Source of the DNA: Deltaproteobacteria bacterium
Lineage (GTDB): Bacteria; Desulfobacterota; Binatia; HRBIN30; JACQVA1
Length of the DNA stretch: 51,554 bases
NCBI GenBank assembly: GCA_016210005.1
Contig: JACQVA010000135.1
Span: 1-51,554 of the forward strand
Reading direction: 5' to 3'
This document shows, piece after piece, positions 8,923-51,554 of the stretch. The notes beneath the pieces are model-generated. The model was not told where the DNA came from. It saw only the letters and a list, made by a program, of their open reading frames with translations, and made no database searches. Made by a program: the position numbers and the translations under genes. Numbering within the stretch: position 1 is the first letter of the stretch; each line of letters opens with the position of its first letter.

Positions 8923-8973
8923 TCGGGTGGGGTTACTCGGAGACACGTTTGATGCCGGCTCTGTGCCGGCGCG

Positions 8974-9049
8974 AGCCAGCCCCGGCCTCAGGCAAGCGGC
9001 CGGTAAAGAACGAGCCGCGAGCGCAAAGCGGCGCAAGTCGGGGCTGGCT
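8974..9049. repeat. 11-bp inverted repeat with 54-base spacer
   Basis: AGCCAGCCCCG at 8974-8984 is the exact reverse complement of 9039-9049. It lies between the Cys-rich gene's stop and the preferred sulfatase start, in 141 bases without a supported gene. It could be a terminator or a leader structure. Confidence 0.4.
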
Positions 9050-30767: not shown

Positions 30768-32033
30768 CTACCGTTGTGCGGCTGCGTCCAACACCGGGCG
30801 AGCCAGCATGGCCGCGTAACCCTGCAGTCCAAGCAGGCGGCGGCTGCACCACCATGCCGCCAGCCACACCACCGCCTCCGCGGCGAGCAGGGCGAGGGCT
30901 GCGCCAGTGACTCCCGCGCTCGTGTACCCTACGGGGATCAGCACTACCGCGGTAGCGGCGCCGCAGGCCGCCGTCAGCATTTCTGCGCCTTGCCGGCCGG
31001 CGGCAATTAGCGCGAAGCGGTAGTGCCCGCTCAGCGCCGCGATCACACACACTCCAGCTAAGCACTGCAGCACGGAGGCCGCCGGCGCGAAGCGGGCGCC
31101 GTATACCGTGGTGATGACCGCCGGTGACACCGACACCCAGGCGGCCCCGGCCACCACGCTGCCCCATGTCACTGCCCGCAGAGAGCCGTGAATGAGCTGC
31201 GCAAAGGGGCGCGGGCCCTGCTGCCAGGCCCGCGCCAGCGACGGCAGGAGGTTGAAAAAATACAGCCAGACGAAGGTGTGCGCGGCCAGCAGGATGCGCA
31301 ACGCGCCGGCAAAGAACCCGACATCTTCCGCCGAAGCCACGAGCCCGAGGATCAGCGTGGCGCCCGACATGCGCACCACCCAGAACAGCTGGCTCAGGCC
31401 GATCGGAACGCCCTCGCGAAACAGACGCGGCGAGAACGTGATCCGCGCCCGAACCGCAGCACCAAAGTGCCGCCAATACCTCCAGGTGCCGTACCCGGCG
31501 GCGCTGCTCACCGCGATTACCTCGGCGGCGGCGACCCGCAACAGCTGCCCGGCGTCGCGCACGAAGACGAACACGAGCGCGGCGAACACCGCCGCACGAA
31601 TCACCTGCACCGTGGCCACGGTGTTCATCCGATCGTGGCCCTGAAACACCCACTGCAGCAGGAACGGTGTTGCCAGCAGACTCACCCCGTAGATCAGCAG
31701 CAGCTGTGTCAGGATGGTCGAGCGATCCAGCAGGCAGGCGAACAGAATGACCCCAGCGTAGGCCGCGAGTGCGAGGATGACGCGCGCACCGACGATCTCC
31801 GCGACCAGCGCGGGGGTGTGCGCCGGCTCACGCGCAATTTCGCGCGCTCCGTAAGGGCCGAAACCCTGATCGACGATCAGGCCGGCACACAGTAGCACCG
31901 CGCCCGCAAACTCCACGATGCCAAAGCCCTCCGGGCCGGCGATGCGAGCGAGGTAAGCGAAGGCTGCGAACGTGAGCAGCTTGCCGGCCAGCTCCGCCCC
32001 AGCCAACGAAAGAAAGTTCCGCAGTAGTTTCAT
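30768..32033 (-). CDS. Wzx-type oligosaccharide flippase
   Basis: 421 residues from the ATG at 32033, which overlaps the upstream TGA by one base (TGATG); a GTG one codon earlier is possible. The N-terminus FLSLAGAELAGKLLTFAAFAYLARIAGPEGFG is split over the typical first two helices of the polysaccharide export family, followed by about ten more helices, with DQGFGPYGAREIAR as the conserved first loop. It should flip an undecaprenyl-pyrophosphate or similar lipid-linked glycan from the cytoplasmic to the periplasmic face. No Wzz-like chain regulator or certain Wzy is in the window. Confidence 0.88.
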   Translation of the reverse strand: MKLLRNFLSLAGAELAGKLLTFAAFAYLARIAGPEGFGIVEFAGAVLLCAGLIVDQGFGPYGAREIAREPAHTPALVAEIVGARVILALAAYAGVILFACLLDRSTILTQLLLIYGVSLLATPFLLQWVFQGHDRMNTVATVQVIRAAVFAALVFVFVRDAGQLLRVAAAEVIAVSSAAGYGTWRYWRHFGAAVRARITFSPRLFREGVPIGLSQLFWVVRMSGATLILGLVASAEDVGFFAGALRILLAAHTFVWLYFFNLLPSLARAWQQGPRPFAQLIHGSLRAVTWGSVVAGAAWVSVSPAVITTVYGARFAPAASVLQCLAGVCVIAALSGHYRFALIAAGRQGAEMLTAACGAATAVVLIPVGYTSAGVTGAALALLAAEAVVWLAAWWCSRRLLGLQGYAAMLARPVLDAAAQR

Positions 32034-33169
32034 CACGGCGTGTGCGCGGTCGCGGCATCGCTGGCCGGCCGCGAGCCCAAGTCTGCCAGCGGCGGAAACG
32101 GCCGCCAGGCCTTACTTCCTGCCAGAACGCGCAACAACTGCAGCGGCTGGAAGGTGATGCTCGGCCAGAGAAAGATCTCATTGGTGCAGTGACAGTCTTT
32201 GGCGCAGATCGAACGCCGCAGTGCCGCGGCCGCGGGCGAGCGCCAAATCTCCTGGAATGATTGCTGCCGCAGATTGCCGAGGGGTAAATGCGTTTCGCAG
32301 GCGCTCACGTCGCCATTGGAGTAAACCACCGCGCTCAGCACCCCGGCGCGGCAAGGAATCACCTGGCGCTGCTCTTGCGCGGTCTTGACCTTGGCCCACT
32401 GCAACATCGGTTCGACGATAGCGCCGTAGCGCCGGCGTTCGCGCGGCGCCCACAACGCGCGCAAGTACTCATAGAGGGCTTGGTACTCGGCCAGCTGTGG
32501 GCCACGCAGTGACGGGTTCTTCCGATCGCCGCGGATCAAAGCCAAGTTGTGGTGGGCTATGTGCGGACAGCGCTCGAACAAATAGGTCGTCAGCCGGCGA
32601 ATCTCCTCCATGTTGTCCGCCGTCGCCGTCGAAATCGCATGCAGCTGGAGCCGCGGATCATCCCGCTGCAACGCCGCCAGGGCGTCGTAGGTCTCCATGG
32701 CTTTGGCGAATGCGTTCTTGGTGGCACGGAAGCGGTCGTGAAACTCCGGCATACCGTCGAGCGAGAACTCCACGGCGAACAGACGCAGGCTCGGCTCCTT
32801 GAGCGTCTCGCGAATCTGTTCGACCGTGCGCTCGGTGTAGTAGCCGTTGGTCGGAACGTAGATCTCCTTGACACCGTTGGCGCGGATGAATTGGCGGCAG
32901 ATTGCGCCGAACTCCTTGCGCAAGAACGGCTCGCCCCCGGAGAGATTGAGATTCTCGATGTGCCCGAGATCGTTGGACAGGGCGACCAACTCCTCGAAGG
33001 TCAGATCGTCACGGCGGTTGAGGTTCTGCCAGTAGAAGCAGTGCTCACACTTCATGTTGCAGATCGAGTTGATGAACAGGATCACGAACGGCGGACTGGG
33101 CACGGCCGGAATGCTCAGGTTCTGCCAGATCAGCCGGGCGTGCTTGGCGACGCGTGTCAGGGCATGCAT
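32033..33169 (-). CDS. Radical SAM/SPASM protein
   Basis: 378 residues. The 4Fe-4S radical SAM motif is C37-N-M-K-C41-E-H-C44, followed by [14 protein letters not shown] (SAM-binding GGE). The C-terminal SPASM-like region holds further Cys ([20 protein letters not shown], then [12 protein letters not shown]), for auxiliary clusters. Family members modify peptides or small molecules by C-H activation. In glycan clusters, related proteins have no proven role that I know. A good AAGGAAGG site lies just upstream of the ATG. The stop overlaps the flippase start and the deacetylase gene ends 21 bases upstream, so it is co-expressed with export and modification genes. Confidence 0.88.
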
Positions 33170-35036: not shown

Positions 35037-36350
35037 CTACGATTCGGAGGTCAGGAACGCCGGTTGGCCGGCGACGCGCTGGAGGTTGGGCGCATTACCG
35101 GGCAGCGTCAACGGCAAGCCGGCGCGTTTCTGGGCGAGCAAAGCGCGCGTCACGCCGAGGTAGTGATCCAAGAACGCCGGCTCGGCGAATTCCGCCTCGT
35201 AGGCGCGCCGGCCCTCAGCGCCGAGGCGCGCGCGCAGGGCCGGGTCGCCCTGCAGCTGCACGACGGCGGCGCGCAGCTCGTCCGGGCTGCGATACAACAA
35301 CCCGCCTCCGTGTCTACGCACCAGTTCCTCCAGCGAGCTTTGGGCGTAGACGATCACCGGCGTGCAAGTGGAGAAGGATTCCGCCACGATCAGGCCGAAG
35401 GTTTCGTAACACAGTGACGGCACCACCGTGGCGAGCGCACCGCGATAGCAGGCCTGTAGCCGGTCATGGTCGATACGGCCGAGGAACTTGATGTTCGCTG
35501 CTCCCGCCGCCATTGCGCGTAGCTCGCTCTCAAAGTCGCCGGTGCCGGCAATCAGCAAGTCGACATCCGGCAGCGCGCGGAACACCGGGATGATGACCTG
35601 CACCCCTTTGATCCGCTCCAGCCGCCCGCTGAAGAGGCAATACGGTCGCTCTACCTTGGGGTTGCGCGCCAAAGCCGGCCCGGCCTCGGGTTCAGGATGG
35701 AAGAGCGGCAACTGAATCATCGTGCCGCGCAGGCCGCGCGCCCGGTGCATCGCAATGGTGAACTCGCTCGGGCCCAGGAAGGCGTCGATATGGCGCGTCG
35801 CCCGGCGCATCAAGCCGGTGTGGCGCCAGAGCTGCGGCGGCCGGCGTCCTGCCAGCTGGCAGCGCAGGCAGCTGGGCTTGGTACAGACTTCGCGGCCGAA
35901 CTTCCACAACACGTGCATCGGGCAAACCAGCCAGTGTTCGATCAACGTGCACAGCTTGAGGCCGCGGCCGTACCGAAAGACGTGCGGCCCGCCGAGCAGC
36001 GAGACGTTGTTGTAGTGAATGACGTCGAAGCTGCCGCCGTCGAGCCAGCGCCGCAGCGCCGGCGCTTGCAGGCCCGGCCGGCCGGTTTGCTGCACCGCTA
36101 GCAAGCCCCACTTGCCGAGCGGCGTTGGCACCGGATGTACCGTCACGTTCGGATGATCCGGGTACTGGTTCGTAGGTTGTCGGCCGGCCAACAACTCGTA
36201 CGCTGAAGGGCTGTGCAACACCGTCACCTGGTGCCCGCGCCGGGCCAGGCCGTTGGCCAGCCGGTGGGCGTAGACCCCGTCGCCACCGAAGTTGTACGGC
36301 GGGTAGAAGGTGGTGACGAGGCAGAAGCGCAGCGGCGACTCGGCGGTCAT
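35037..36350 (-). CDS. Family 4 glycosyltransferase (GT-B)
   Basis: 437 residues from the ATG at 36350. A longer frame to 36386 would overlap the acyl-CoA dehydrogenase gene. The N-terminal domain has VTTFYPPYNFGGDGVYAHRL, split by the Gly-Gly donor loop. The C-terminal domain has FSGRLERIKGV and the E-x7-E motif in CYETFGLIVAE, which binds the nucleotide-sugar diphosphate. A Cys-rich insert (CTKPSCLRCQLAG) near residue 165 is unusual and may bind a metal. It probably acts in the cytoplasm on a lipid-linked acceptor with retaining chemistry. It follows the acylation cassette directly. Confidence 0.88.
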   Translation of the reverse strand: MTAESPLRFCLVTTFYPPYNFGGDGVYAHRLANGLARRGHQVTVLHSPSAYELLAGRQPTNQYPDHPNVTVHPVPTPLGKWGLLAVQQTGRPGLQAPALRRWLDGGSFDVIHYNNVSLLGGPHVFRYGRGLKLCTLIEHWLVCPMHVLWKFGREVCTKPSCLRCQLAGRRPPQLWRHTGLMRRATRHIDAFLGPSEFTIAMHRARGLRGTMIQLPLFHPEPEAGPALARNPKVERPYCLFSGRLERIKGVQVIIPVFRALPDVDLLIAGTGDFESELRAMAAGAANIKFLGRIDHDRLQACYRGALATVVPSLCYETFGLIVAESFSTCTPVIVYAQSSLEELVRRHGGGLLYRSPDELRAAVVQLQGDPALRARLGAEGRRAYEAEFAEPAFLDHYLGVTRALLAQKRAGLPLTLPGNAPNLQRVAGQPAFLTSES

Positions 36351-36370
36351 GGCAACGGGCTCACGCTGGG

Positions 36371-37516
36371 CTAAATTCCGAGGCACTTGGCGATGATGTT
36401 GCGCTGGATGTCGGAGGTGCCGGAGTAGAGCGTGCTGGCCATCGCGTCGCGCAGATCACGTTCGATCTGCATCTCGGTCATGTAGCCGTAGCCGCCATGG
36501 AGCCGCACGGCGTCGATGCAGGATTGGGTGAAGGCCTCGGAGACATAGAGCTTGGCCATGGCGGATTCGCGCAATGCCGGCTGGTTGCGCTCCTTGAGCC
36601 AGCCGATGCGGTAGACCAGGAAGCGCCCGGTATCGAGGCGCACGCTCATGTCGACGATGCGGTGGGCGACGGCTTGGAACTTCCCAATCGGGGCGCCGAA
36701 CTGCCGGCGTTGGCGGGCGTGATCGAGGCAGCTTTCCAGCTGCCGGCGCATTACCCCCAGACAGCTGGCGAGGATGCAGCCGCGCTCCCATTCCATGGAG
36801 CATTCGAAGACGGCGACGCCGCGGCCCTCGCGGCCCAAGCGGTTCGCCGCCGGGATCTCGCAGTCGTCAAAAATCACTTCGGCCATCGGCGAGGTTCGCA
36901 GCCCCATCTTCTCCAGCGGCTTGCCGATCACCAGGCCGGGGGTGCCGCGCTCGATGATGAAGGCGGTGATGCCCATCGGCCCGAGCGCAGGATCGATGGT
37001 GGCGTAGGCGACGATGAGATCCGCCACCTGGGCGTTGGTGACGAACATCTTGGCGCCGTTGAGCACGTAGCGGTCGCCGCGGCGCTCGGCGCGTGTGCGC
37101 AGCGCAAACACGTCCGAGCCGGCCTCGGGTTCGCTGGCGGCATTGGCACCGATCAGCGTGCCGTTGCCCAGGCCGGGGAGGTAGCGCTGGCGTTGCGCGG
37201 CATCGCCGTGGAGCAAGATCGGAATCGAATTCGTCCACAGATGGGCGTTGATCGAGAACAGCAACCCTTGGTCGCGGCAGCCGTAGCCCAGCCCTTCCAT
37301 CACGGCGATGACTTCGGTGATGCCGAGAGCGAGGCCGCCGTACTCCTTCGGGATGGGCATGGACTGGACCCCGAATTCGGCGCACTGGCGCCAGCCCTCG
37401 AGGCTGAACTGTTCGTCGCGGTCGCGCGCGATCATGTCGGCGCTGAGCTTGGCGCGGGCGAAGGCGATCGCCGCCGCCTGCCACTGCTGTTGTGATTCGG
37501 TGAGGTCGAGATTCAT
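36371..37516 (-). CDS. Acyl-CoA dehydrogenase-like, prolyl-carrier dehydrogenase type
   Basis: 381 residues, the normal ACAD length. Visible motifs: GANAASEPEAGSD (FAD/substrate), YVLNGAKMFVTNA, MEWERGCILASCLGVM, RRQFGAPIGKFQAV, and HGGYGYMTEMQIERDLRDA with LYSGTSDIQRN. The Glu used by MCAD-type enzymes in the YEGT motif is Ser365 here. Glu244 in MEWERG aligns with the isovaleryl-CoA dehydrogenase base and with the position I recall for CloN3/PltE. The overall pattern (GCRDQGLLFSINAH, SMEWERGC) is closer to prolyl-S-carrier oxidases than to beta-oxidation enzymes. Inferred job: oxidise a carrier-bound amino-acyl group, such as prolyl to pyrrolyl. It lies 9 bases after the ligase gene. Confidence 0.85.
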   Translation of the reverse strand: MNLDLTESQQQWQAAAIAFARAKLSADMIARDRDEQFSLEGWRQCAEFGVQSMPIPKEYGGLALGITEVIAVMEGLGYGCRDQGLLFSINAHLWTNSIPILLHGDAAQRQRYLPGLGNGTLIGANAASEPEAGSDVFALRTRAERRGDRYVLNGAKMFVTNAQVADLIVAYATIDPALGPMGITAFIIERGTPGLVIGKPLEKMGLRTSPMAEVIFDDCEIPAANRLGREGRGVAVFECSMEWERGCILASCLGVMRRQLESCLDHARQRRQFGAPIGKFQAVAHRIVDMSVRLDTGRFLVYRIGWLKERNQPALRESAMAKLYVSEAFTQSCIDAVRLHGGYGYMTEMQIERDLRDAMASTLYSGTSDIQRNIIAKCLGI

Positions 37517-37525
37517 AACCGGCTG

Positions 37526-39061
37526 TCACGCGCCGGGCGCACCCAGGGCGCGGGCGAGGGTCTGGTAGTCGATCTTGTCGGTCGACGTGTGCGGCAGCGC
37601 GTCGCGAAAGGCGAAGACGTCGGGAACCATGTAGGCCGGCAGCTGCTGCGCGCAAAACTGCTTGAGTGAGATGATCGTCGGCTTGGCCCCGCTGCGCGGC
37701 ACCACGTGAGCGACGATCTTGATGCCGGCGTTGGCGTCGGCCTGCGCCGTGGTGGCGACCTCGCGGATTTCGGGGTGGCGGTAGAGCGCGCTTTCGATCT
37801 CGCCCAGCTCGACGCGGTAGCCGCGCCGCTTCACCATGCGGTCGCGCCGTCCGAGGTAGAGCAAGCTGCCGTCATTGTCTTCACGGACGACGTCGCCGGT
37901 GTTGTACCAGCGCCGTCCGGCACGCTCGATCAACACCGCCCGGGTCTGCTCGGGGCGATTCCAGTAACCTTGAAACACCGCCGGCCCCGCCACGTACAGC
38001 AGTCCCTCCTCGCCCGGCTGCACCGGCGCCAGCGCGTCGTTCAGAACCACGGTGTCACAATGAGTGCACGGAAGCCCAATCGGGTAGGGCGTGGTGCGAT
38101 CGGGCGGGATGGCGGGCGGAATGCGCCAGAAGGTGCATACGTTGGTTTCCGTCGGCCCGTAGAGGTTGAAGTACGCCGGCCGCGGCCACAGCTCGAGCAG
38201 CCGGCGCAGGTGCTTGACCGGAAAGACCTCGCCGGCAAACAACACCAGCCGCAGCGCGCTGAAGTCGAGACGATTAAGTCCGCCGAATTCCACCAGCATC
38301 GCCAGCACCGATGGGGTGGCGTAACAGATGGTCAGTCGCTGCTCGGCAACGAAGCGGGCGAGCTGCTGCGGGCTCTTGCTCACCTCCTCCGAGATCAGAA
38401 ACACCGTCGCGCCATGCTTGATGGCGACGAACAGATCGAAGACCGAGAGGTCGAAATGGAACGGCGCATGGCTGCTGAAGCGGTCATTGCCGTCGGGCGT
38501 GAAGGTGTCCGAGCACCACTCGATGAAGCTGATGGCGTTGGCGTGCGACAGCATCACGCCTTTGGGTACGCCCGTCGATCCGGAGGTGTACAGAATGTAG
38601 GCCAGACCCTCGCTCCGCCTGGCGTAGGGCGGATCGCCGGCGCGCTCGGGCGAGAGGCTGTGCTCCCCGAGCAGCAACATTTGCAGCCTCGGCTCCGGAT
38701 CGGCGGCGAAGAGGTCGGCGCCGGCATTGTTGCTTACAACGCTGCGGACCTGGCAATCGTGCAGAATGGTGTGTATCCGCTCGCGGGGCGCTGTCGCATC
38801 GACCGGCACATAGGCCGCGTCCGCCTTGAGGATGGCGAAGATCGCCACCACGCTGTCGATGCTCTTCGGCAAGAGGATGCCGACGCGATCCCCGGGGACG
38901 ACTCCTCCCGCTCGTAGCCTGGCGGCGAGGTGTTCGGCGCGCTCGTTCAGCTCGCCGTAACTAATGGCGGAGCCGCCGGGATTAACCACCGCCGGGCGAT
39001 CGGGGGCGCGCGCGGCGCTGCGCTCGAGATACTCAGCCAGATGGGTCACTGTCTTGTCCAT
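37526..39061 (-). CDS. Stand-alone amino-acid adenylation enzyme (prolyl-carrier ligase-like)
   Basis: 511 residues. ANL-family core motifs in order: YTSGSTGVPKG (159-169), HFDLSVFDL (202-210), NLYGPTE (299-305), YNTGD (386-390), RGYRVELGEIE (413-423) and TDKID with catalytic Lys496. Pocket residues by alignment to GrsA are Asp204, Leu205, Phe208, Cys246, Leu274, Ala276, Leu300, Val308, Cys309 and Lys496. Asp204 indicates an alpha-amino acid. The code resembles the proline code DLLYLALVCK that I recall for PltF/RedM/CloN4. It should activate the amino acid as AMP ester and load the carrier encoded just before it (TGATG overlap). DltA is the other reference family. Confidence 0.88.
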   Translation of the reverse strand: MDKTVTHLAEYLERSAARAPDRPAVVNPGGSAISYGELNERAEHLAARLRAGGVVPGDRVGILLPKSIDSVVAIFAILKADAAYVPVDATAPRERIHTILHDCQVRSVVSNNAGADLFAADPEPRLQMLLLGEHSLSPERAGDPPYARRSEGLAYILYTSGSTGVPKGVMLSHANAISFIEWCSDTFTPDGNDRFSSHAPFHFDLSVFDLFVAIKHGATVFLISEEVSKSPQQLARFVAEQRLTICYATPSVLAMLVEFGGLNRLDFSALRLVLFAGEVFPVKHLRRLLELWPRPAYFNLYGPTETNVCTFWRIPPAIPPDRTTPYPIGLPCTHCDTVVLNDALAPVQPGEEGLLYVAGPAVFQGYWNRPEQTRAVLIERAGRRWYNTGDVVREDNDGSLLYLGRRDRMVKRRGYRVELGEIESALYRHPEIREVATTAQADANAGIKIVAHVVPRSGAKPTIISLKQFCAQQLPAYMVPDVFAFRDALPHTSTDKIDYQTLARALGAPGA

Positions 39062-39318
39062 CAGGCGCGCCCGCCGCGCTTCTGCCCGACAAATGCGGCG
39101 ATGTCCTCGATACGGTCGAAGTTTTCCACGCTCGCTTCGTGCGCGTCGACCTCGATACCGAATTGCTCTTCGACGAAGGTTACCAGGCGCAACGTCGCCA
39201 TCGAGTCGAGCACGCCGCTGGTACGCAACGGCGTGTCATCGCGCAGGTTGGCCGGCGATTCGCCGGGAAGACACTCACTGAGAATGTAGCAGCGGATTAC
39301 TTCCTTGATGTCGCTCAT
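39061..39318 (-). CDS. Acyl/peptidyl carrier protein
   Basis: 85 residues from the ATG at 39318, chosen for the GAGG site 5 bases upstream; the longer frame to 39483 is a shadow of the SGNH gene. GVLDSMATLRLVTFVEEQFG carries Ser39, the 4'-phosphopantetheine site, in the usual place at the start of helix 2. The size and acidic helix 2-3 are normal for a discrete carrier. It would hold the amino acid loaded by the next-gene ligase and present it to the dehydrogenase and then the acyltransferase. No phosphopantetheinyl transferase lies in the window. The stop overlaps the ligase start, so both should be made together. Confidence 0.9.
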   Translation of the reverse strand: MSDIKEVIRCYILSECLPGESPANLRDDTPLRTSGVLDSMATLRLVTFVEEQFGIEVDAHEASVENFDRIEDIAAFVGQKRGGRA

Positions 39319-39325
39319 GACAGCC

Positions 39326-40513
39326 TCACGGATGCCGCGGCGCTCGGTTGCGGCTGGCTTGTTGGACGGGCGCGCCCGGGCCGAGCACGATCGCCCGGAG
39401 CCGGGGCGAGGCCAGGGCCTTTTGCTGAAGGTTATCGAGCAGGCGGCGATGCCCGGCGGCGTTGGGATGCACGTCGCCCGCACGCAGCTGGAATTCGTTG
39501 AGGTCGGCGGCGCCGGCGAAAGTGTCCAGAAGATTCAGGGTCGGAACCTCAAGCTCTTCGAGCAGTTCGATGGCGTCGCCGAAGCCGGGTGCTGCCGAGT
39601 GCGACTCCTCGACCTGTGGTACCAGCAGCACGAGCAGGTCGGCGCGCTGGCGCTGCGCGTGCGCCTGCAATGACTCGATGACCCAGCGCAGCACGCGGAG
39701 GCGATGGGGTGCCAACTTGGCGTTGAAGGTGACCATGTCGTCGCTCGGCTGCAAGCGAGCCTCACGCGCCAGCTGGCGCAAGAAGTCGTAACGCAGGTCG
39801 ATGCCGTCGTGAACCAATTGCGCGAGATGGTCGCCCCAGCGCCGCATCACCGACAGGTCGGTAAACGCCAGCGCATAGACATCGGGGGCAAACGCCGCGG
39901 CTCGCTCCAGCGCCACGTCGAGCATCTGCGTGATGCGGTAGCCGCCGACGGCGAAGTTCAAAATCTCGAATTGCTGGGCTGTGGCCGCACCGTACTCTTG
40001 GTTGAGGTGGTGTTCGAGCAGGGCCTCGAAGCGCTCGCCCGGCGCGACCCCGAAGCCGCGGGCGATCGAGTCGCCGATGAGGGCGATACGGCGCGTGTTG
40101 GGCGGTCGCTGGAGCGGGTACTCCTCGTCGGCCATGCCGGAGCTGTTGGTGATCAAGCGGTCGCCCGCGAAGGTGAGATCGAGGTTCGGTTTGAAGTCGT
40201 AACGAAGGAAGCCCGCAAGTCGGCGGTGGGCAGCAGTGGCGTTGCCGCCGCGGGGCCAGGCGCCGCCGTCGGCGGCCGCGTTGGTCAAGTGATGCCCGGC
40301 CGCGCTGCCGACGTTGAGCAGGTCCTGATAATAGCCCGCAGTGCGGCGAGCGTCATCGTCTGCATTCAGGCCGCGGCGGCTGAGGGTGGCGATTAGCACG
40401 CTGACCCAAGCTGGCTGCCGGTGCGGCAAAATGGAGGCGAGCAGTGGCAGCGTTAGCAACACGGTCAGTACAAGCAGCGAGCTGGTGGCGCTGCGCCAGA
40501 AGCGGATGGACAT
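39326..40513 (-). CDS. SGNH-fold membrane-anchored protein B (intact catalytic pair)
   Basis: 395 residues from the ATG at 40513; the longer frame to 40960 reads through the neighbour out of frame. One N-terminal TM helix (about 9-30), then a periplasmic domain. Block I is ALIGDSIARGFG (Ser149), block II NFAVGGYRITQ, and block V GDVHPNAAGH (Asp347, His349). Block III lacks a clear Asn (AFTDLS). The adjacent paralogue differs at block V. In Dlt- and Alg-type systems such a protein partners an MBOAT enzyme and moves the acyl group to the final acceptor. It is 7 bases upstream of the carrier gene, which ties it to the cassette. Confidence 0.83.
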   Translation of the reverse strand: MSIRFWRSATSSLLVLTVLLTLPLLASILPHRQPAWVSVLIATLSRRGLNADDDARRTAGYYQDLLNVGSAAGHHLTNAAADGGAWPRGGNATAAHRRLAGFLRYDFKPNLDLTFAGDRLITNSSGMADEEYPLQRPPNTRRIALIGDSIARGFGVAPGERFEALLEHHLNQEYGAATAQQFEILNFAVGGYRITQMLDVALERAAAFAPDVYALAFTDLSVMRRWGDHLAQLVHDGIDLRYDFLRQLAREARLQPSDDMVTFNAKLAPHRLRVLRWVIESLQAHAQRQRADLLVLLVPQVEESHSAAPGFGDAIELLEELEVPTLNLLDTFAGAADLNEFQLRAGDVHPNAAGHRRLLDNLQQKALASPRLRAIVLGPGAPVQQASRNRAPRHP

Positions 40514-40550
40514 GGTGTTGGGAGTCACTCTGCGGTGCGGCGAGCGGCGA

Positions 40551-41756
40551 TCAGGGTCTGGCGCTAGCAATGCCGGCCGATTGCGTGGCCTCGTCGGGAC
40601 CCAGCACGGCGGCGCGCAGGCGCGCTGAAGCCATGAGCTTGCGGTGCAGGTTTTCGAACAGCAGGCGATGGCCGGCGCGATTGGGGTGGAAGTTGCCCGG
40701 GCCAAGCCGCAGGGCGGCAAGGTCGGTCGTGCCGGCGAAGCTATCGAGTAGATCGACGAAGGGGATGTCGAGGTCCTGCAACAGGTGCACGGTGTCAGCA
40801 AAGCGCGCCGCGACCAATTGGGTGTCGTCGGCCGTCGGTACCAGCAGTACGACCAGGGCCGCCGCGTGCTGTTGCGCGTGGCTCTGCAACGCCAACAACA
40901 CCGCCCGCACGGCCGGTGAGCAGTACGGCGCCAGCTTGGCGGTGAACGTGGTGCGATCATCGGCGGTGTCGAGCTGTGCGTGGCGAGCGAGGGCGGTGAG
41001 GAACTCGTACTTCAGGTCGATGCCGTCATGGACCAGTTGCGCAAGGTGATCGCCCCAGGTGCGGCTGATCGACAAGTCCGTCAACGCCAGCAGGTAGACG
41101 TCGGGGTCAAAGGCGCTGGCGCGATCGAGGGCGACATCGAGCATTTGCGTGATCCGGTATCCTTCCACCGCGAAGTTGAGAATCTCAAAGGTACGCCTGC
41201 CGTTGTCGTGCGCCGTACGATTCAGCCGGTCTTCCAGCAGCGGCTCGAAGCCATATCCGGTGGGGACGCCGAAGCCGCGCGCAATCGAGTCGCCCACCAG
41301 AGCCAGGCGGCGCACCTGGGCTGGTTTGTTCAGAGTGTAGGGTTGGTCCGCCATGCCGAAATCGTTGGTTAGGAGCCGCCCGCCCGGGTAGGGGACCTCG
41401 AGGTTGGGCTTGAAGTCGTAATAGAGGAAGTCGCGGCGCCGGCGATTTACGCGTGTCAGCACCTCGAACTCGTGCCAGTTGTCGGCGCGGGCGGCGAGCA
41501 GCGCGGTAATGCGGTTGCCGGTCATGGTGGCGCCTTCGTTCATCAGCCCCTCGTAATAGCCGGCGGTGGTGCGCGCGCGGTCTTCCTCGTTGAGCCCGCG
41601 CCGGCTCAGGGTATGCAGTACCGAAGCGGCGGCCGCGGCAGCATTGCTGGGCAGGATCGCGGGTAGCTGCGAGGCGGCGAGCAGCAGTACCAAGGCCGCT
41701 TGGATGCAGACCGCGTTGGCCCAAAAGTGCGAGCGCACTAGCCGACCTGCCACCAT
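40551..41756 (-). CDS. SGNH-fold membrane-anchored protein A (block V Asp replaced by Asn)
   Basis: 401 residues; the ATG at 41756 overlaps the MBOAT gene by 19 bases, and a GTG at 41738 is an alternative. One TM helix (about 14-35). Block I LALVGDSIARGFG (Ser157) is kept and NFAVEGYRITQ has Glu before the conserved Gly. Block V reads GNFHPNRAGH, so the catalytic Asp is Asn355, with His357 kept. It is closely related to protein B along its full length, with the same SRRGLN and GYYxxLxN segments, so the pair arose by tandem duplication. It may have lowered hydrolytic activity or a binding role. Confidence 0.83.
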   Translation of the reverse strand: MVAGRLVRSHFWANAVCIQAALVLLLAASQLPAILPSNAAAAAASVLHTLSRRGLNEEDRARTTAGYYEGLMNEGATMTGNRITALLAARADNWHEFEVLTRVNRRRRDFLYYDFKPNLEVPYPGGRLLTNDFGMADQPYTLNKPAQVRRLALVGDSIARGFGVPTGYGFEPLLEDRLNRTAHDNGRRTFEILNFAVEGYRITQMLDVALDRASAFDPDVYLLALTDLSISRTWGDHLAQLVHDGIDLKYEFLTALARHAQLDTADDRTTFTAKLAPYCSPAVRAVLLALQSHAQQHAAALVVLLVPTADDTQLVAARFADTVHLLQDLDIPFVDLLDSFAGTTDLAALRLGPGNFHPNRAGHRLLFENLHRKLMASARLRAAVLGPDEATQSAGIASARP

Positions 41757-43021
41757 GTGAGCAGCTCAAACCATGCGCGCATGCTGGGGGCGTTCCACAT
41801 CGACCACAACACCGCCAGCAGCGCGAATGTGCCGGCGACCTTGAGCGGGCGCACGAAAACACGCTGCGCGCTCGCCACCGGGCGCCGTCGGCGCGCCTCC
41901 AGCAACAAGTTGCCGGTGACGAGTAGGCCCAGAACCATCCAGAACAGCACGTCCGGTCCGCTCAGCAGCACCTGGCCCGTTAGCCAGAAGTACTGATACA
42001 TGTGCAGCAGCCAAGTGACGACGAAGACGAGGAGGGTGGCGACGATCTGCGCCCGCACCTCGCCACGCTTGCGCAGCCGGAAGTAGGCGGGAAAGTACAC
42101 CAACTTCACCATGAAGTCTTTCCAATAGATGTTGATCCGCCGCCAGAAGTCGGTGAGGCTGCCGGCCAGGAAGTAGCGGCGATGGGTCTCCGGCAAATCG
42201 TAACCAAACAGGTGCAGTAGGCCGACGATGACGTGGAACTGGCCGGACACTCGCAGGTAGAGCAGATACGTCGTCACGATTGCCAACCCCAGCGCGCCCG
42301 CGGAGGTGACGGTATCCGGTGTGGCTTCGGGCTTGAGGTAATAGACCAGCCGGTAAAGCAGTAGCTGGCTGGTGCCGCGCACGATCCAGTGAATGCCCTG
42401 CTGCGCCACGTCATGGACGTCGCGGGCGTAGAAACTGCGCCGCAGGGTTTGGAAGTCAATCACCGGGAAGAGCACGAAGTAGTAGTTCGGCAGCAGGAAG
42501 AAGTAGCGCAGGAAGTCCCGCACCTTCGGGCGCTGGCCGCCGTGGCGGAGATCGTAGAGGTAGATCAACATGCGGAACATGAAGAGGGCGCCAAACACCG
42601 GCCAGAATTGCTGCGGCAGGCCGAAGCCGTGCAGCGCGCGGCCGTAGAGCAGCGCGGCGAAGATCGCGGCCACGCCGCCGGCACGGACGACATAGGGGAG
42701 CGGTGCCGCGAGGATGGCGAAGAACACCCCGCCGAAGGCCAGCAGCAAGAGCGCCACGCGGTGCTCCAGCAACACGAAGGCCCCGCCCAGGGACAGCAGG
42801 ATCCAGAACGGCTCCTTGAAGCGAAACGGCAACCAGTAGTGCACGGCAAAACCCCCGAAGGCGGTTGCCGCCAATACCAGAAACGCCGGCTCTTCGACGC
42901 GAAACGTCTTGAATACCAGCAGCAAGGCGCCGAGCTGCGCCATCAGCGCGGTGAAGCGCAGCGGATCACGGGTGGCGTGGGCCGCACGCGGGTCGGTAGT
43001 CACACTCGGGGTTGCCGGCAT
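41738..43021 (-). CDS. MBOAT-family O-acyltransferase
   Basis: 427 residues from the ATG at 43021, with AGGA about 9 bases upstream; the frame to 43102 overlaps the epimerase gene. About ten hydrophobic helices. The MBOAT signature region reads DFWRRINIYWKDF, then FVVTWLLHMYQYFW with the invariant catalytic His340. Bacterial members (DltB, AlgI, PatA) move acyl groups from a cytoplasmic carrier across the membrane to a glycan. Here it is first in a run with two SGNH proteins, a carrier and a ligase, a Dlt-like set. Substrate specificity cannot be read from its sequence. Confidence 0.88.
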   Translation of the reverse strand: MPATPSVTTDPRAAHATRDPLRFTALMAQLGALLLVFKTFRVEEPAFLVLAATAFGGFAVHYWLPFRFKEPFWILLSLGGAFVLLEHRVALLLLAFGGVFFAILAAPLPYVVRAGGVAAIFAALLYGRALHGFGLPQQFWPVFGALFMFRMLIYLYDLRHGGQRPKVRDFLRYFFLLPNYYFVLFPVIDFQTLRRSFYARDVHDVAQQGIHWIVRGTSQLLLYRLVYYLKPEATPDTVTSAGALGLAIVTTYLLYLRVSGQFHVIVGLLHLFGYDLPETHRRYFLAGSLTDFWRRINIYWKDFMVKLVYFPAYFRLRKRGEVRAQIVATLLVFVVTWLLHMYQYFWLTGQVLLSGPDVLFWMVLGLLVTGNLLLEARRRRPVASAQRVFVRPLKVAGTFALLAVLWSMWNAPSMRAWFELLTWWQVG

Positions 43022-43052: not shown

Positions 43053-44078
43053 TCAGGCCGCAGGAGCGGCCGGCGGTGCCGCCAGCGCGGCGCGCGTAGC
43101 AATGCGCCGGGGCAAACGCTCGCGCGTCATGTGGTCGATGACCGAGATCAAGATCTCACGCAAGCTGGTGCGTGGCCGGTCGCACAGCAGGGCGTCGAGC
43201 TTGCCCAGGTCCGGCAGGCGGCGTTGCATATCCTCGAAGCCCAGGCCGTAGGCGACCTCGTACGGTACGTACACTATGTCGGAAGATGAGCGCGCTTGCG
43301 CGCGCACCTGGTGGGCGAGCGCGGCGATCGTGGTCTCTTCATCATTGCCGATGTTGATGACCTGACCGACGGCGTCGGGATGCTCGGCCAAGCCCACCAG
43401 CATGCGCACGACGTCTTCGACGTAAGCGAAGCAGCGTTGTTGCTGCCCGTCGCCGTACACCTTGATCGGCCGCCCAGCGATCGCGGCTTCGACGAAGCGC
43501 GGGATCACCATGCCGTAGCGGCCGGTCTGGCGCGGGCCGACGGTGTTGAACAAGCGCGCAACGATGACCGGCACCTTGTGCTCTTCCCAGTAAGCCAAGG
43601 CGAGGAACTCGTCGATCGCTTTCGAGCAGGCGTAACTCCAGCGCCGCTTGGTGGGCGGCCCCATGAGTAAGTCGTCGTCCTCGCGAAAGGGCACGTCGGT
43701 GCGCTTGCCGTAGACCTCACTGGTGGAGGTGAGCAACACCTTGCGATGCTTCTTGGCCGCCATTTGCAGCACCACCTCGGTACCGGCGACGTTGGTGGTG
43801 ATGGTGCGCACCGGGTTCTCAACGATCAGCTGGACCCCGACGGCGGCGGCCAGATGAAAGACCACCTCGCATTGATCGACTAGTTCCGCGACCAGCTGGC
43901 GGTTGCAGACGGAGTCGATGTGATAGGTGAAGCGGGGATGACCTTTGAGGTGGGCGATGTTGTCCATGGCGCCGGTCGAGAGGTCGTCGATGATGGCGAC
44001 GTCGTCACCGCGCGCAATCAGCAGTTCGGCCAGATGCGAGCCGATGAATCCGGCACCACCTGTTATCAGGGCTCTCAT
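43053..44078 (-). CDS. Extended-SDR nucleotide-sugar epimerase/dehydratase
   Basis: 341 residues from the ATG at 44078, fixed by the AAGGAGG site before it. GGAGFIGSH (7-15) binds NAD(P). STSEVYG (118-124) and YACSK (Tyr149, Lys153) form the catalytic triad. ARLFNTVGPRQTGRYGMVIP and YGDGQQQRCFAYVEDV are the sugar-binding regions. The pattern fits UDP-glucose 4-epimerase, UDP-glucuronate decarboxylase or related enzymes; I cannot separate these safely. It should supply an activated sugar for the glycosyltransferases in the cytoplasm. A 60-base gap separates it from the GT4 gene. Confidence 0.87.
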   Translation of the reverse strand: MRALITGGAGFIGSHLAELLIARGDDVAIIDDLSTGAMDNIAHLKGHPRFTYHIDSVCNRQLVAELVDQCEVVFHLAAAVGVQLIVENPVRTITTNVAGTEVVLQMAAKKHRKVLLTSTSEVYGKRTDVPFREDDDLLMGPPTKRRWSYACSKAIDEFLALAYWEEHKVPVIVARLFNTVGPRQTGRYGMVIPRFVEAAIAGRPIKVYGDGQQQRCFAYVEDVVRMLVGLAEHPDAVGQVINIGNDEETTIAALAHQVRAQARSSSDIVYVPYEVAYGLGFEDMQRRLPDLGKLDALLCDRPRTSLREILISVIDHMTRERLPRRIATRAALAAPPAAPAA

Positions 44079-44088
44079 GGTGAGGTGT

Positions 44089-44095
44089 CCTCCTT
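44089..44095 (-). promoter_or_regulatory. Shine-Dalgarno of the epimerase gene
   Basis: AAGGAGG on the minus strand, 10 bases before the ATG at 44078. It excludes the longer frame to 44138. Confidence 0.75.
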
Positions 44096-44138
44096 CGCGC
44101 TCAGGCGGGGCCAGTTGGCGCCGCGGTGTAATGCCCAA

Positions 44139-48279: not shown

Positions 48280-51200
48280 CTACGGCGCGGGGCGGGCGAT
48301 GACGGCTTCGGCCAGTAGCGCGGTGCAGCGCATGGCGGAGGCGCTGCTGCTGGGGCGGCGGATGCCGCCGCGCAGCGCGTTGAGCGCCGCCAGTGTCCAG
48401 GGCGAGCCGTTGGGCTGGGTGCCGAAGAGCGAGTACACCGCCGGCCAATAGCTGGTGTTGCTGCCGAGCATGCCGCCGATGTTGATGCTCGGTCCCCACA
48501 CGGCGGTGGTGCCGTCGAAAATGCCGGTGGCAAGTTGCCGCGGGTTGGCACTGGTGGTGGCTTGGCGCACCACTGCCAGCAGCGCCACCGCCCGTACTGT
48601 CTCGCCCGGATTTAGACTGATGTCACTCAATGTGTACAGGTCGTTCTCGACCACGGTGGTGTAGACGTAGTCGCTGTCGTTGTTGGGCATGCCGGCGGCG
48701 GCGAAGTCATCCACCTTGGTCCAGTTGGTCGCCGGGCTGGTGGGGGAGCGGCTCCAGGTGATGGCGGCATCGCCGTTGGGCACCAACTCCTGCAGGCGCA
48801 GCACCGGCAGATCCATGCCGTTGCCACCGCTCTGCAGCACCCAGTCGTCGACGTACAACTCCATCGCCGCGGCTTCGGTGCGGGGTGCGCCGATGAAGGC
48901 GTAACGCAACTGCGGTGACACACTGGCCTGCGCCAGCGTCTGCGCGCCCACCAGTTGCCCGTTGATCCACAGCCCGCACTCGACCGTGCCGGGCAGACAG
49001 TCATACACTTGCCCGGTGCCGTTGTGCACGGAGTTGAAGGCCACCTCGTACCACGTGTTTAGCGCCAGGGTGTCGCTCGCGGCGTAGAGGCTACCGCCGG
49101 AATCGGCGTAGTGCAGCTGCAATGCGACACCCCCGCCGGCCGCGGTGGCGTAGAGCGCGCAGCTGCCGCCGCAGTAGGCTGTACTAAAGCCCGCGATCAT
49201 GCGCGGTACGGCCGGCGCGCTGCTCACGCGCAGCTGGAAGTGCTGGCCGGCAGCTGCACCGCCGATGTCCTTGTACAACTCCTCGCTCTGGCCGGTGCCG
49301 GGGGCGAACTTCACCGAGCAGGAGTTATCGGTGGCAACCGGCGGTGCCGGTGTGCGTTGGGTGGAGGGGTTGACGCCGGAGCCCGACCACGCCCCGCCGG
49401 CGGCCTGCCCGCCAAACGGGTCAAGCAGGTGCTGCGTCGGGCCCAGGTTACAGAACTCAAAGCCCGTGGCGAACACGATCTGCGGGGTGGGCGTAGGAGT
49501 CGCGGTCGGGGTGGGCGTGGAGGTGCGAGTCGAAGTGTGGGTTGCGCCGAGCACGGTGATTGCGCCGCTGCTCGCGACCGAGTTGATGCTGGCGCCGTAG
49601 GAATCGCTCAGGTGTGGGCGCTCGCCCGTGAGGGGGTAGACGCCGGGCGCTGCGTTGCCGCTGATCGGGAAGGTGCAGCTAGCCACGATGCCGTCGCCGA
49701 ACGTCGCGGCGCTGCTCATATCCAGTGCCAGGAGCCGCAAGCGCGTCTGCCCTGCCGGTGCCGGCGGGTCGGCCGGCAACGAGGTGCTCAACGAGTGATC
49801 GATCAGCCGGGGATCAATCGTACAGGTCGGGGTGCCGAAGGTGGCGCTATCGAACAACAGATCGAGCTGGGCGGCCGATACCGTGTCGGCGCCGCCCGCA
49901 ACGCTTATTGCCACCGTGGCGGTGCTGCCGCGGGCGCCGGATGCGGTGCCGATTTGCACCGTACCGGTCAAGCCGGTTTCGCCGCTGATGGCATCACCGC
50001 CGGTAGGCCCGTCCGGAGTGCCGCCGCCAGGGCTCTGCGGGGCTCCACTCCAGGCGAAGCAACCATTCAAGGCGTTATTGACCGCGTAGACCAGCTCCTC
50101 CACTGTCACCTCACCGTCGAGCGTGCGGTCAAACCGCTCGCAGGTGCTGAGCGGTTGGTTGCCGAGGGCGATGTTGACGCCGACAACGAGTTCATCCACG
50201 GTCACTTCGCCGTCTCCCAAGCAGTCGCCGGCGCACATGGGCGTGAAACTCAGCGAGAACGAAAGGCTGCCGCCGGGCAGCGAGCAGGCATTGGTCACCA
50301 AGATCAATTGTGTCACGCCTTGCGTGACATTAAAGTTCAGCACGGTGTTGTTGTTGCCGCCGTTGGCGTTGGCGCAGCCGGCGAAGGTGGGCGCGATGCA
50401 CTCGCCGCGCAGGGCCGCCACCACCGGTGCGTAGCCCATGGCAGCCTCGACGCCAACCGTACCGTCATACGGCGGAGTGAAGCGGTACCACACCCCGCGC
50501 TTGGTATTGGTGCACCCTGAGGCCCAGCACGAGTTTGGGACGGCGGGGACGTCATCCGAGGTAGCGGTGGCGATGTTGCGGACATCGAAGAACGGCTCCT
50601 CGACCACGACGGCGTTGTCGCAGAGGTCGTTCTGCGTCAGCTCGCAAGCATCAGCGATCTGGTCCCCGTCCGAGTCCGGCTCGCTGTCGCAGGCATCCCC
50701 GACGCCATCGCCGTCGCAATCGAACTGGAGCGGGTTGGCGACCGTGGGGCAGTTGTCGGTCGGGCATATGTTGGCGGAGAAGCCGGGATCCCCAAGGCCG
50801 TCGCCGTCCGTGTCCGTACACGTATCGCACGCGTCACCGGTGCCGTCGCTGTCGGCATCGAGTTGATCCGCGTTCGCAACGCCCGGACAGTTGTCACAGA
50901 CATCGCCGATGCCGTCCGCATCAGCGTCTGCTTGCTGTGGATTATGCGCTTGCCGCCCGGCGGCGCTTGCCCCGGGGCGGCAATTGTCGCACATGTCGCG
51001 CACGCCATCGCCATCTTCGTCGGGCCCCTGTGTGCAAGGCCCGAGGGTGATAACTGCCACTTCCGTATTGCCTGACCAGTATGCCACGTTCAGCTCCGAC
51101 AACGTGAGCCAGCGAAACGATTCCTCGTTGTTTTTGATGATCTTCACCAGCATCGTGCCGTTGGTTCCGACGACGTAAATTTGCCCAAAGGGGTTGGGTC

Positions 51201-51554
51201 GGATCTGGTGACCCGTCGCCGTCGGGGTGCTCATTGGTGTCACTGGCCTGTTTGGAAGCCGCATAATCCCGTTCTCGTCCGTAGTGCCGGCGATCTCAGG
51301 AGTGTTGTCGATCTGCTCGTGGTCGCTGTCACACGCGCTCTTCTGGTAAAGTTTGACGCCGGCATACGACATTGCACTCCCCGCGTTGTCGAGCACGCGG
51401 ATGTACGTACTAGTGGGCGTATCCCACAGGTACTCGCCATAGTACCCCCCTCGGCGAAACCCGGCGTCGGCGTTCAGCGCCCCGATGGTGTGGCTAGACG
51501 GCATGTCCAGGTACCCGTCGCAAACCCCAACAGGGCAATCATTACTTGTGACGC
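48280..51554 (-). CDS. Large secreted multidomain protein: TSP3 repeats, dockerin-like pair, cohesin-like domain (5' partial)
   Basis: The frame is open to the right window edge, so the protein starts upstream; an internal ATG at 51504 gives 1074 residues. Visible domains in order: a segment with GTTDENGIMRLP; thrombospondin type 3 repeats (DEDGDGVRDMCDNC, DADGIGDVCDNCP, DSDGTGDACD) near 170-290; a beta-rich domain with VWYRFTPPYDGTV; a paired EF-hand region (DCLGDGEVTVDEL and DRTLDGEVTVEEL) near 430-480; a cohesin-like domain (ASGARGSTATVAISV, DLLFDSATF, FGDGIVASCTF) near 515-655; a Thr/Pro linker; and a C-terminal concanavalin-like part with YKDIGGAAAGQHFQLR. The calcium-binding modules and linker fit an extracellular protein. 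Its role is unknown. Confidence 0.87.
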   Translation of the reverse strand, partial: VTSNDCPVGVCDGYLDMPSSHTIGALNADAGFRRGGYYGEYLWDTPTSTYIRVLDNAGSAMSYAGVKLYQKSACDSDHEQIDNTPEIAGTTDENGIMRLPNRPVTPMSTPTATGHQIRPNPFGQIYVVGTNGTMLVKIIKNNEESFRWLTLSELNVAYWSGNTEVAVITLGPCTQGPDEDGDGVRDMCDNCRPGASAAGRQAHNPQQADADADGIGDVCDNCPGVANADQLDADSDGTGDACDTCTDTDGDGLGDPGFSANICPTDNCPTVANPLQFDCDGDGVGDACDSEPDSDGDQIADACELTQNDLCDNAVVVEEPFFDVRNIATATSDDVPAVPNSCWASGCTNTKRGVWYRFTPPYDGTVGVEAAMGYAPVVAALRGECIAPTFAGCANANGGNNNTVLNFNVTQGVTQLILVTNACSLPGGSLSFSLSFTPMCAGDCLGDGEVTVDELVVGVNIALGNQPLSTCERFDRTLDGEVTVEELVYAVNNALNGCFAWSGAPQSPGGGTPDGPTGGDAISGETGLTGTVQIGTASGARGSTATVAISVAGGADTVSAAQLDLLFDSATFGTPTCTIDPRLIDHSLSTSLPADPPAPAGQTRLRLLALDMSSAATFGDGIVASCTFPISGNAAPGVYPLTGERPHLSDSYGASINSVASSGAITVLGATHTSTRTSTPTPTATPTPTPQIVFATGFEFCNLGPTQHLLDPFGGQAAGGAWSGSGVNPSTQRTPAPPVATDNSCSVKFAPGTGQSEELYKDIGGAAAGQHFQLRVSSAPAVPRMIAGFSTAYCGGSCALYATAAGGGVALQLHYADSGGSLYAASDTLALNTWYEVAFNSVHNGTGQVYDCLPGTVECGLWINGQLVGAQTLAQASVSPQLRYAFIGAPRTEAAAMELYVDDWVLQSGGNGMDLPVLRLQELVPNGDAAITWSRSPTSPATNWTKVDDFAAAGMPNNDSDYVYTTVVENDLYTLSDISLNPGETVRAVALLAVVRQATTSANPRQLATGIFDGTTAVWGPSINIGGMLGSNTSYWPAVYSLFGTQPNGSPWTLAALNALRGGIRRPSSSASAMRCTALLAEAVIARPAP

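Follow-up and report, generated by a model that had tools for sequence, protein, structure and literature searches.

What does a bacterium make with a run of six genes that sets a membrane-bound O-acyltransferase (MBOAT) and two SGNH proteins beside a carrier protein, an adenylation enzyme and an acyl-CoA dehydrogenase (ACAD)-fold dehydrogenase? The cassette lies on a 51,554-nucleotide (nt) contig of Deltaproteobacteria bacterium (JACQVA010000135.1 of assembly GCA_016210005.1, analyzed whole and called the window below). A preliminary description of this DNA had proposed that an amino acid, probably proline, is loaded on the carrier, oxidized to pyrrole-2-carboxyl and esterified to a surface glycan. 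The six genes and the coordinates that it gave were all confirmed, on the minus strand, co-directional and nearly overlapping (Table 1); each frame is open with a single terminal stop and the spacings, in the order MBOAT to ACAD, are -19, 37, 7, -1 and 9 nt. Judging from sequence comparison and modeled structures, we consider it likely that the cassette performs a carrier-dependent, Dlt-like (halo)pyrroloylation, in which proline is loaded, oxidized to pyrrole, exported and esterified to a surface acceptor.

The predicted identity of the acid comes from the adenylation enzyme. This ligase scored above the cut-off of TIGR01733 (391.6 bits) and has the ten-residue pocket code DLFYLALVCK; 17 of the 18 ligases whose code could be read, the window's included, match the pattern DL[FLH]Y[LFN]ALVCK (two partial rows, two unrelated ligases and the ligases of loci L050, L051 and L055 fall outside this count). 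When the pocket region was compared with the PDB, the top two matches, 6o6e (107.6 bits) and 7thn (85.3 bits), were both L-proline--[L-prolyl-carrier protein] ligases, and eight of the nine code positions that align with 6o6e are identical by eye; the best DltA reached 61 bits. Over its full length the ligase scored higher with double-domain gramicidin synthetase chains and another peptide synthetase than with 6o6e, which was listed seventh. With this pocket code, and with prolyl ligases as the nearest solved relatives of the pocket, proline is the probable substrate, as had been suggested. An ordinary DltA ligase for D-alanine was also considered and is ruled out by the pocket, insofar as sequence can decide; both DltA models scored under their cut-offs (288.8 bits against 476 and 275.2 bits against 559.85). 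The carrier matches PF00550 on the frame starting at 39315 and reached 101.9 bits with NCBIfam NF052616 (cut-off 130) and 27.6 bits with DltC (cut-off 68). Its stop codon overlaps the ligase start (TGATG), and by eye the phosphopantetheine serine is kept in the window carrier and the 16 relatives displayed.

The closest PDB sequences to the dehydrogenase are 4irn, 6cxt, 5zw0 and 6af6, the first three scoring 543, 419 and 415 bits with the family profile. Of these, 4irn is a prolyl-ACP (acyl carrier protein) dehydrogenase and 5zw0 and 6af6 are of an L-prolyl-[peptidyl-carrier protein] dehydrogenase, while 6cxt, labeled butyryl-CoA dehydrogenase, appears as Bmp3 in PMC10849742. A fatty-acid ACAD was rejected, since the prolyl-carrier dehydrogenases outscore every other solved ACAD. 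By alignment the catalytic base is E244, a residue invariant in 21 of 21 homologues; the models NF053553 (PigA) and NF045652 (RedW) gave 435.7 bits (cut-off 500) and 408.1 bits (cut-off 650). Together, the prolyl pocket, the prolyl-carrier type of ACAD and the catalytic Glu favor the earlier assignment of the last three genes to the prolyl-to-pyrrolyl kind of trio, whose members we take to be PltF/PltL/PltE (pyoluteorin), PigI/PigG/PigA (prodiginine) and CloN4/N5/N3 (aminocoumarin). The cassette is like these trios in its homologous adenylation enzyme, carrier and ACAD, in its pocket and catalytic Glu, and in the PltA-type halogenase of two relatives; it is unlike them in being tied to a membrane MBOAT and SGNH proteins, and not to a polyketide synthase, a nonribosomal peptide synthetase or a soluble acyltransferase.

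The relatives with halogenases bear on the oxidation state of the product. The statement that no halogenase is present holds for the window but not for the family. At L025 a protein encoded between SGNH and ACAD has near full-length matches to ChlB4 (577 bits), PltA (571 bits) and the FADH2-dependent halogenase 5buk (561 bits) and contains the motif WIWQIP; at L029 two PltA-type halogenase genes lie beside the MBOAT gene and divergent from it. PltA-type halogenases act on carrier-bound aromatic rings. Because an aromatic ring is needed, L025 and L029 most likely make pyrrole, and these two related cassettes lead us to favor pyrrole over pyrroline as the predicted product.

How would the acyl group be exported? 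The window MBOAT matched no family in a Pfam search, its sequence profile matched no PDB chain, and the DltB model gave a weak score of 24.7 bits (cut-off 375). In contrast to the sequence profile, the AlphaFold2 model (mean predicted local distance difference test score, pLDDT, of 87) has DltB (8jem) as its top structural match (Z 25.5, 3.9 A over 360 residues), followed by 6bug (Z 24.8) and by PORCN and other MBOATs at Z 20-22, so that by structure comparison of the model this is a DltB fold. MBOAT and SGNH were modeled apart; a joint alignment for the L033 fusion had misaligned SGNH N-termini. H340 of the MBOAT is invariant in 14 of 14 aligned rows. The C-terminal FXYXXF of PatA/AlgI-type O-acetyltransferases was found in 0 of 13 unfused cassette MBOATs examined and in three of five distant MBOATs (FIYFRF, FLYFQF and FIYYQF). 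At two further loci, L040 (6830-10115) and L043 (6994-10249), a distant MBOAT without this C-terminal motif adjoins an AMP ligase, at L040 together with a carrier.

The two SGNH proteins are 51% identical. SGNH1 has a hydrophobic segment centered on residue 25 and a candidate triad of S157, D355 and H357; Y67, Y68, S157 and H357 are among the 11 positions invariant in all 16 rows of alignment A5, and D355 is kept in at least 90%. The model of SGNH1 is an SGNH fold whose best match is 8a2n, CgnD (Z 21.3, 2.9 A over 236 residues), with esterases next at Z ~15; the 50 listed fold matches include neither DltD nor PatB nor AlgX, which excludes none of them. A Tyr-Tyr pair follows soon after the membrane helix in 23 of 23 SGNH domains examined (17 plus six more; the L052 fusion, truncated where its contig ends, and the SGNH-like fragment at L055 15929-16171 were left out). 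A membrane-proximal pair is missing in all four other SGNH proteins that a profile search found in the window genome, one of which has Tyr-Tyr near its C-terminus and one of which has no predicted membrane helix. In the account of Dlt and PatA given in PMC12148441, the tyrosine of an FXYXXF motif, in DltX or at the MBOAT C-terminus, passes the acyl group on to the serine of the SGNH protein. Neither DltX nor a C-terminal FXYXXF was found within 30-48 kb of the window, and we infer that the shuttle tyrosine is here probably the Tyr-Tyr of the SGNH partner, not DltX or the MBOAT C-terminus. A DltX-like microprotein was sought in all frames of that interval and rejected; the sole FXYXXF lies inside SGNH1, where 286 residues follow it.

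Evidence that the two halves of the cassette belong together comes from its distribution. Scanning genome contigs with the ACAD alone returned 20 loci, for which flanks of up to 10 kb were fetched. The same MBOAT clade is present in the fetched flank of 12 of them, accompanied by a carrier, a ligase and either one SGNH domain or two, and in the genomes of 15 (each at E 1e-146 or better). As a background rate, the clade was found in two of 395 sampled genomes of the window's phylum and four of 396 of L019's phylum, the window and L019 genomes included (E 1e-20, with no more than four candidates per genome scored). In a set of 14 genomes searched for the ACAD, it occurs in four of the six with the MBOAT clade (the window genome, G049, G195 and G722) and in none of the eight with only distant MBOATs; in the two with the clade but no ACAD (G688 and G570), a different AMP ligase adjoins an MBOAT-SGNH fusion. 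L056 (6152-10680) and L057 (2868-7558) carry an MBOAT-SGNH fusion, a carrier and a different AMP-binding ligase in genomes without the ACAD. As fusion and carrier are kept there with another ligase, the export machine may serve several acids.

Homologous cassettes were found in Acidobacteriota/Bryobacterales, in Planctomycetota and in other genomes that belong to the class and phylum of the window, some of the hosts being bacteria known mainly from environmental DNA. The gene order is reshuffled among these cassettes, and in some of them MBOAT and SGNH are fused. Seven arrangements were seen: (i) MBOAT-SGNH-SGNH-carrier-A-ACAD (A, adenylation enzyme), in the window; (ii) ACAD-MBOAT-carrier-A-SGNH-SGNH, at L019; (iii) ACAD-MBOAT-carrier-A-SGNH, at L022, L024, L030 and L034; (iv) ACAD-MBOAT-SGNH-carrier-A, at L023 and L027; (v) MBOAT-SGNH-ACAD-carrier-A, at L020 and L029 and, with intervening genes, L025 and L055; (vi) ACAD with a double MBOAT-SGNH set, at L028; and (vii) MBOAT-SGNH fusion-carrier-A-ACAD, at L033, L039 and L050, the L033 fusion matching PF13472 at E 1.3e-6, just under the gathering score. 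Across the 15 loci with full ligase and MBOAT, evolutionary distances were correlated (Mantel r of 0.61 for ACAD-MBOAT, 0.62 for ligase-MBOAT and 0.67 for ACAD-ligase, with 0 of 2000 permutations as high); on the ACAD tree the presence of the MBOAT shows no more clustering than expected by chance (it takes 4 changes, and 138 of 500 shuffles need as few). The possibility, raised in the preliminary description, that the ACAD is a chance neighbor is ruled out by the co-occurrence, set against its background rate, and the reshuffled gene order; these and the correlated divergence support a functional link between the trio and the MBOAT and SGNH proteins. In the two planctomycete cassettes L023 and L027 a TatC gene (15763-16776 and 11991-13040, respectively) stands immediately after the ligase. 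L032 (10001-16399) has no MBOAT and combines the ACAD and a ligase of the window's pocket code with flavin hydroxylase-like and phosphoenolpyruvate-synthase/PigC-like genes; the PigC model score of 147 bits is far under the cut-off, and this is perhaps a small-molecule pyrrole cluster.

There is precedent for each half of the proposed pathway. Clorobiocin and coumermycin carry a pyrroloyl ester on a sugar, and the cassette would likewise bring a carrier-bound pyrrole acid to a sugar hydroxyl, although in those compounds the transfer is soluble, the acceptor is a small molecule and no membrane is crossed. The cassette is like Dlt D-alanylation (DltA-DltB-DltC-DltD, with DltX) in its stand-alone adenylation enzyme, the carrier as predicted acyl donor, the DltB-fold MBOAT and the SGNH proteins. 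To equate its first five genes with the Dlt set was nevertheless too strong, as no DltX or C-terminal FXYXXF was found, and the cassette further differs in its prolyl-type pocket, the added dehydrogenase, the halogenases of two relatives, the Tyr-Tyr on SGNH and the MBOAT-SGNH fusions. Like the PatA/PatB and AlgI/AlgJ/AlgX O-acetyltransferases it pairs an MBOAT with SGNH proteins having a Ser-His-Asp triad; unlike PatA, described in PMC12148441 as using acetyl-CoA and a C-terminal FXYXXF tyrosine, it has a carrier protein and no such motif. It probably works like Dlt, yet is not a Dlt system.

Our working model is as follows. The adenylation enzyme, to go by its family and pocket and by the carrier's motif, would activate L-proline with ATP and attach it to the phosphopantetheine of the 85-residue carrier. 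The ACAD would then most likely remove four electrons from the prolyl-S-carrier to give pyrrole-2-carboxyl-S-carrier, the ring of which two relatives probably halogenate with their PltA-type enzymes. By analogy with DltB, the MBOAT would accept the acyl group from its carrier on the cytoplasmic side of the membrane and conduct it across to a tyrosine, probably one of the invariant pair that lies close outside the SGNH protein's membrane helix. The Ser-His-Asp triad of the SGNH protein would then form an ester between the pyrroloyl group and a hydroxyl on the extracytoplasmic acceptor; that there are two SGNH paralogues may reflect two positions or two acceptors. We infer that in this genome the acceptor is most likely a glycan because the cassette is embedded in a glycan operon. 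The epimerase gene ends 31 nt before the MBOAT gene, the GT4 glycosyltransferase gene overlaps the ACAD gene by 16 nt, and in the co-directional run from 47996 to 27430 every gap is at most 37 nt; upstream of the cassette this run holds epimerase, GT4, GT2 and PMT-like genes, and downstream GT4, GT2, deacetylase, radical-SAM and Wzx-like genes.

Several observations weigh against this model, and they are best considered together with the explanations they might favor. The acceptor could be a secreted small molecule, a lipid or a protein, with the window's glycan genes a coincidence. CgnD, the top fold match of the SGNH model ahead of the esterases, belongs to crocagin biosynthesis, Sorangium L021 has carrier, ligase and ACAD without an MBOAT, and few glycosyltransferases are listed beside the other cassettes: among their neighbors (n=115; gene calls crude and some spurious, with 23 neighbors of L050 and L051 excluded) the best 25 of 155 families hold three GT2 and two GT4 members. 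Control genes (n=106; three of the 12 control stretches, under 5 kb, contributed none) gave no glycosyltransferase in the best 25 of 172 families, a comparison that lends weak support to glycosyltransferase-rich surroundings of the related cassettes. We nevertheless regard a non-polysaccharide acceptor as rather unlikely, given the tight run of glycosyltransferase, epimerase, deacetylase and Wzx-like genes in which the window cassette is embedded and given that the MBOAT-SGNH pairs described in PMC12148441 acylate envelope polymers. The shuttle proposed for export to a surface glycan also has a point to answer in the Tyr-Tyr stretch (residues 52-96), which in the lone SGNH model has pLDDT <50; such a value may fit a part that needs a partner.

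The chemistry of the acid can be questioned in similar terms. The ligase of L019 (12784-14379) has the pocket code DMQYGAFVCK; this cassette is otherwise typical, and its ligase may load another amino acid. The family profile ranks 4irn above 6cxt and 5zw0, and 4irn is presumably AnaB, a two-electron enzyme that ends at pyrroline, so that the ACAD might halt after two electrons and the exported group be a 1-pyrroline-carboxyl ester. Of 24 genomes searched, 13 have matches to the halogenase family PF04820, for the most part on contigs away from the cassette, and the window genome has none at E 1e-8; the halogenase argument accordingly stands on location and on closeness to PltA. These two properties, together with the 68% identity of the L025 and L029 ACADs to that of the window and the full-length matches of the latter to PigA and RedW, though below cut-off, make the pyrroline ester improbable in our view. 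A further scenario is that the product of the carrier trio is a free pyrrole compound while MBOAT and SGNH form a separate acetyltransferase sharing the operon. Five of the 20 genomes found with the ACAD have no MBOAT match (those of L021, L026, a 3-kb contig, L032, L036 and L038), and shared descent of the host genomes can also yield correlated distances. Co-occurrence, reshuffled order and those distances are, however, difficult to reconcile with two separate systems, as is the retention of carrier and fusion at L056 and L057 despite another ligase; the PatA-type motif (PMC12148441), moreover, is missing where a separate acetyltransferase would call for it and present among the distant MBOATs. 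We regard this scenario as very improbable and continue to favor pyrroloylation of a surface acceptor.

Table 1. The cassette and neighboring genes of its co-directional run (window coordinates)
Feature	Coordinates	Strand	Basis
MBOAT acyltransferase, DltB fold	41738..43021	(-)	AlphaFold2 model, DltB structural match
SGNH protein 1 (SGNH1)	40551..41756	(-)	PF13472; one N-terminal transmembrane helix, YY67-68, SGNH domain
SGNH protein 2 (SGNH2), SGNH1 paralogue	39326..40513	(-)	PF13472; ATG start 40513
Carrier protein, 85 residues	39061..39318	(-)	PF00550, LDSM phosphopantetheine site
Adenylation enzyme, predicted L-proline--carrier ligase	37526..39061	(-)	PF00501/PF13193, TIGR01733, pocket code
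ACAD-fold dehydrogenase, predicted prolyl-carrier substrate	36371..37516	(-)	PF02771/PF02770/PF00441
NAD-dependent epimerase/dehydratase, upstream neighbor	43053..44138	(-)	PF01370
GT4 glycosyltransferase, downstream neighbor	35037..36386	(-)	PF00534
Wzx-like flippase, same co-directional run	30768..32036	(-)	PF01943, 105.9 bits

Other features of the window deserve mention. A radical SAM/SPASM protein is encoded near the cassette (32033-33169), and a 59% identical relative lies near the L055 cassette (L055 2917-4092). An AlgX/SGNH-like membrane protein at 13743-15332, which has no Tyr-Tyr, is a possible second glycan acyltransferase; L055 has an AlgX-like gene between SGNH and ACAD. A cohesin and TSP3 protein (48280-51504) and a dockerin and beta-propeller protein (15151-17340), both on the minus strand, are a possible surface cohesin-dockerin pair, and three sulfatase-family proteins of 625-635 residues with N-terminal hydrophobic segments are encoded at 7159-9036, 11841-13727 and 17366-19273.

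We found no article joining pyrrole carrier chemistry with an MBOAT or with glycan acylation among the matches listed from the open-licence PubMed Central literature, as judged by titles and the starts of abstracts, in keeping with the earlier remark that no described system is known to join these parts. Each half is already known; what appears to be new is their union, together with the relatives that carry halogenases and the changed place of the candidate shuttle tyrosine. In PMC12148441 Dlt is presented as the one MBOAT-SGNH pathway to have a carrier protein, and the others are said to have none, evidently because they use acyl-CoA. It is possible, and we put it forward tentatively, that the cassettes of Acidobacteriota, Planctomycetota and other bacteria form a second carrier-dependent branch, one that places pyrrole-2-carboxyl esters, some of them halogenated, on envelope glycans by way of an SGNH-borne shuttle tyrosine, and whose siblings at L056 and L057 attach other acids. 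If so, a second carrier-dependent version of this pathway, aromatic and possibly halogenated and spread over several phyla, would widen the known surface chemistry of bacteria. It would also suggest a modular rule, in which ligase and tailoring enzymes choose the acid and the MBOAT-SGNH pair exports it, and the site of the acyl-tyrosine shuttle would become directly testable, natural MBOAT-SGNH fusions included.

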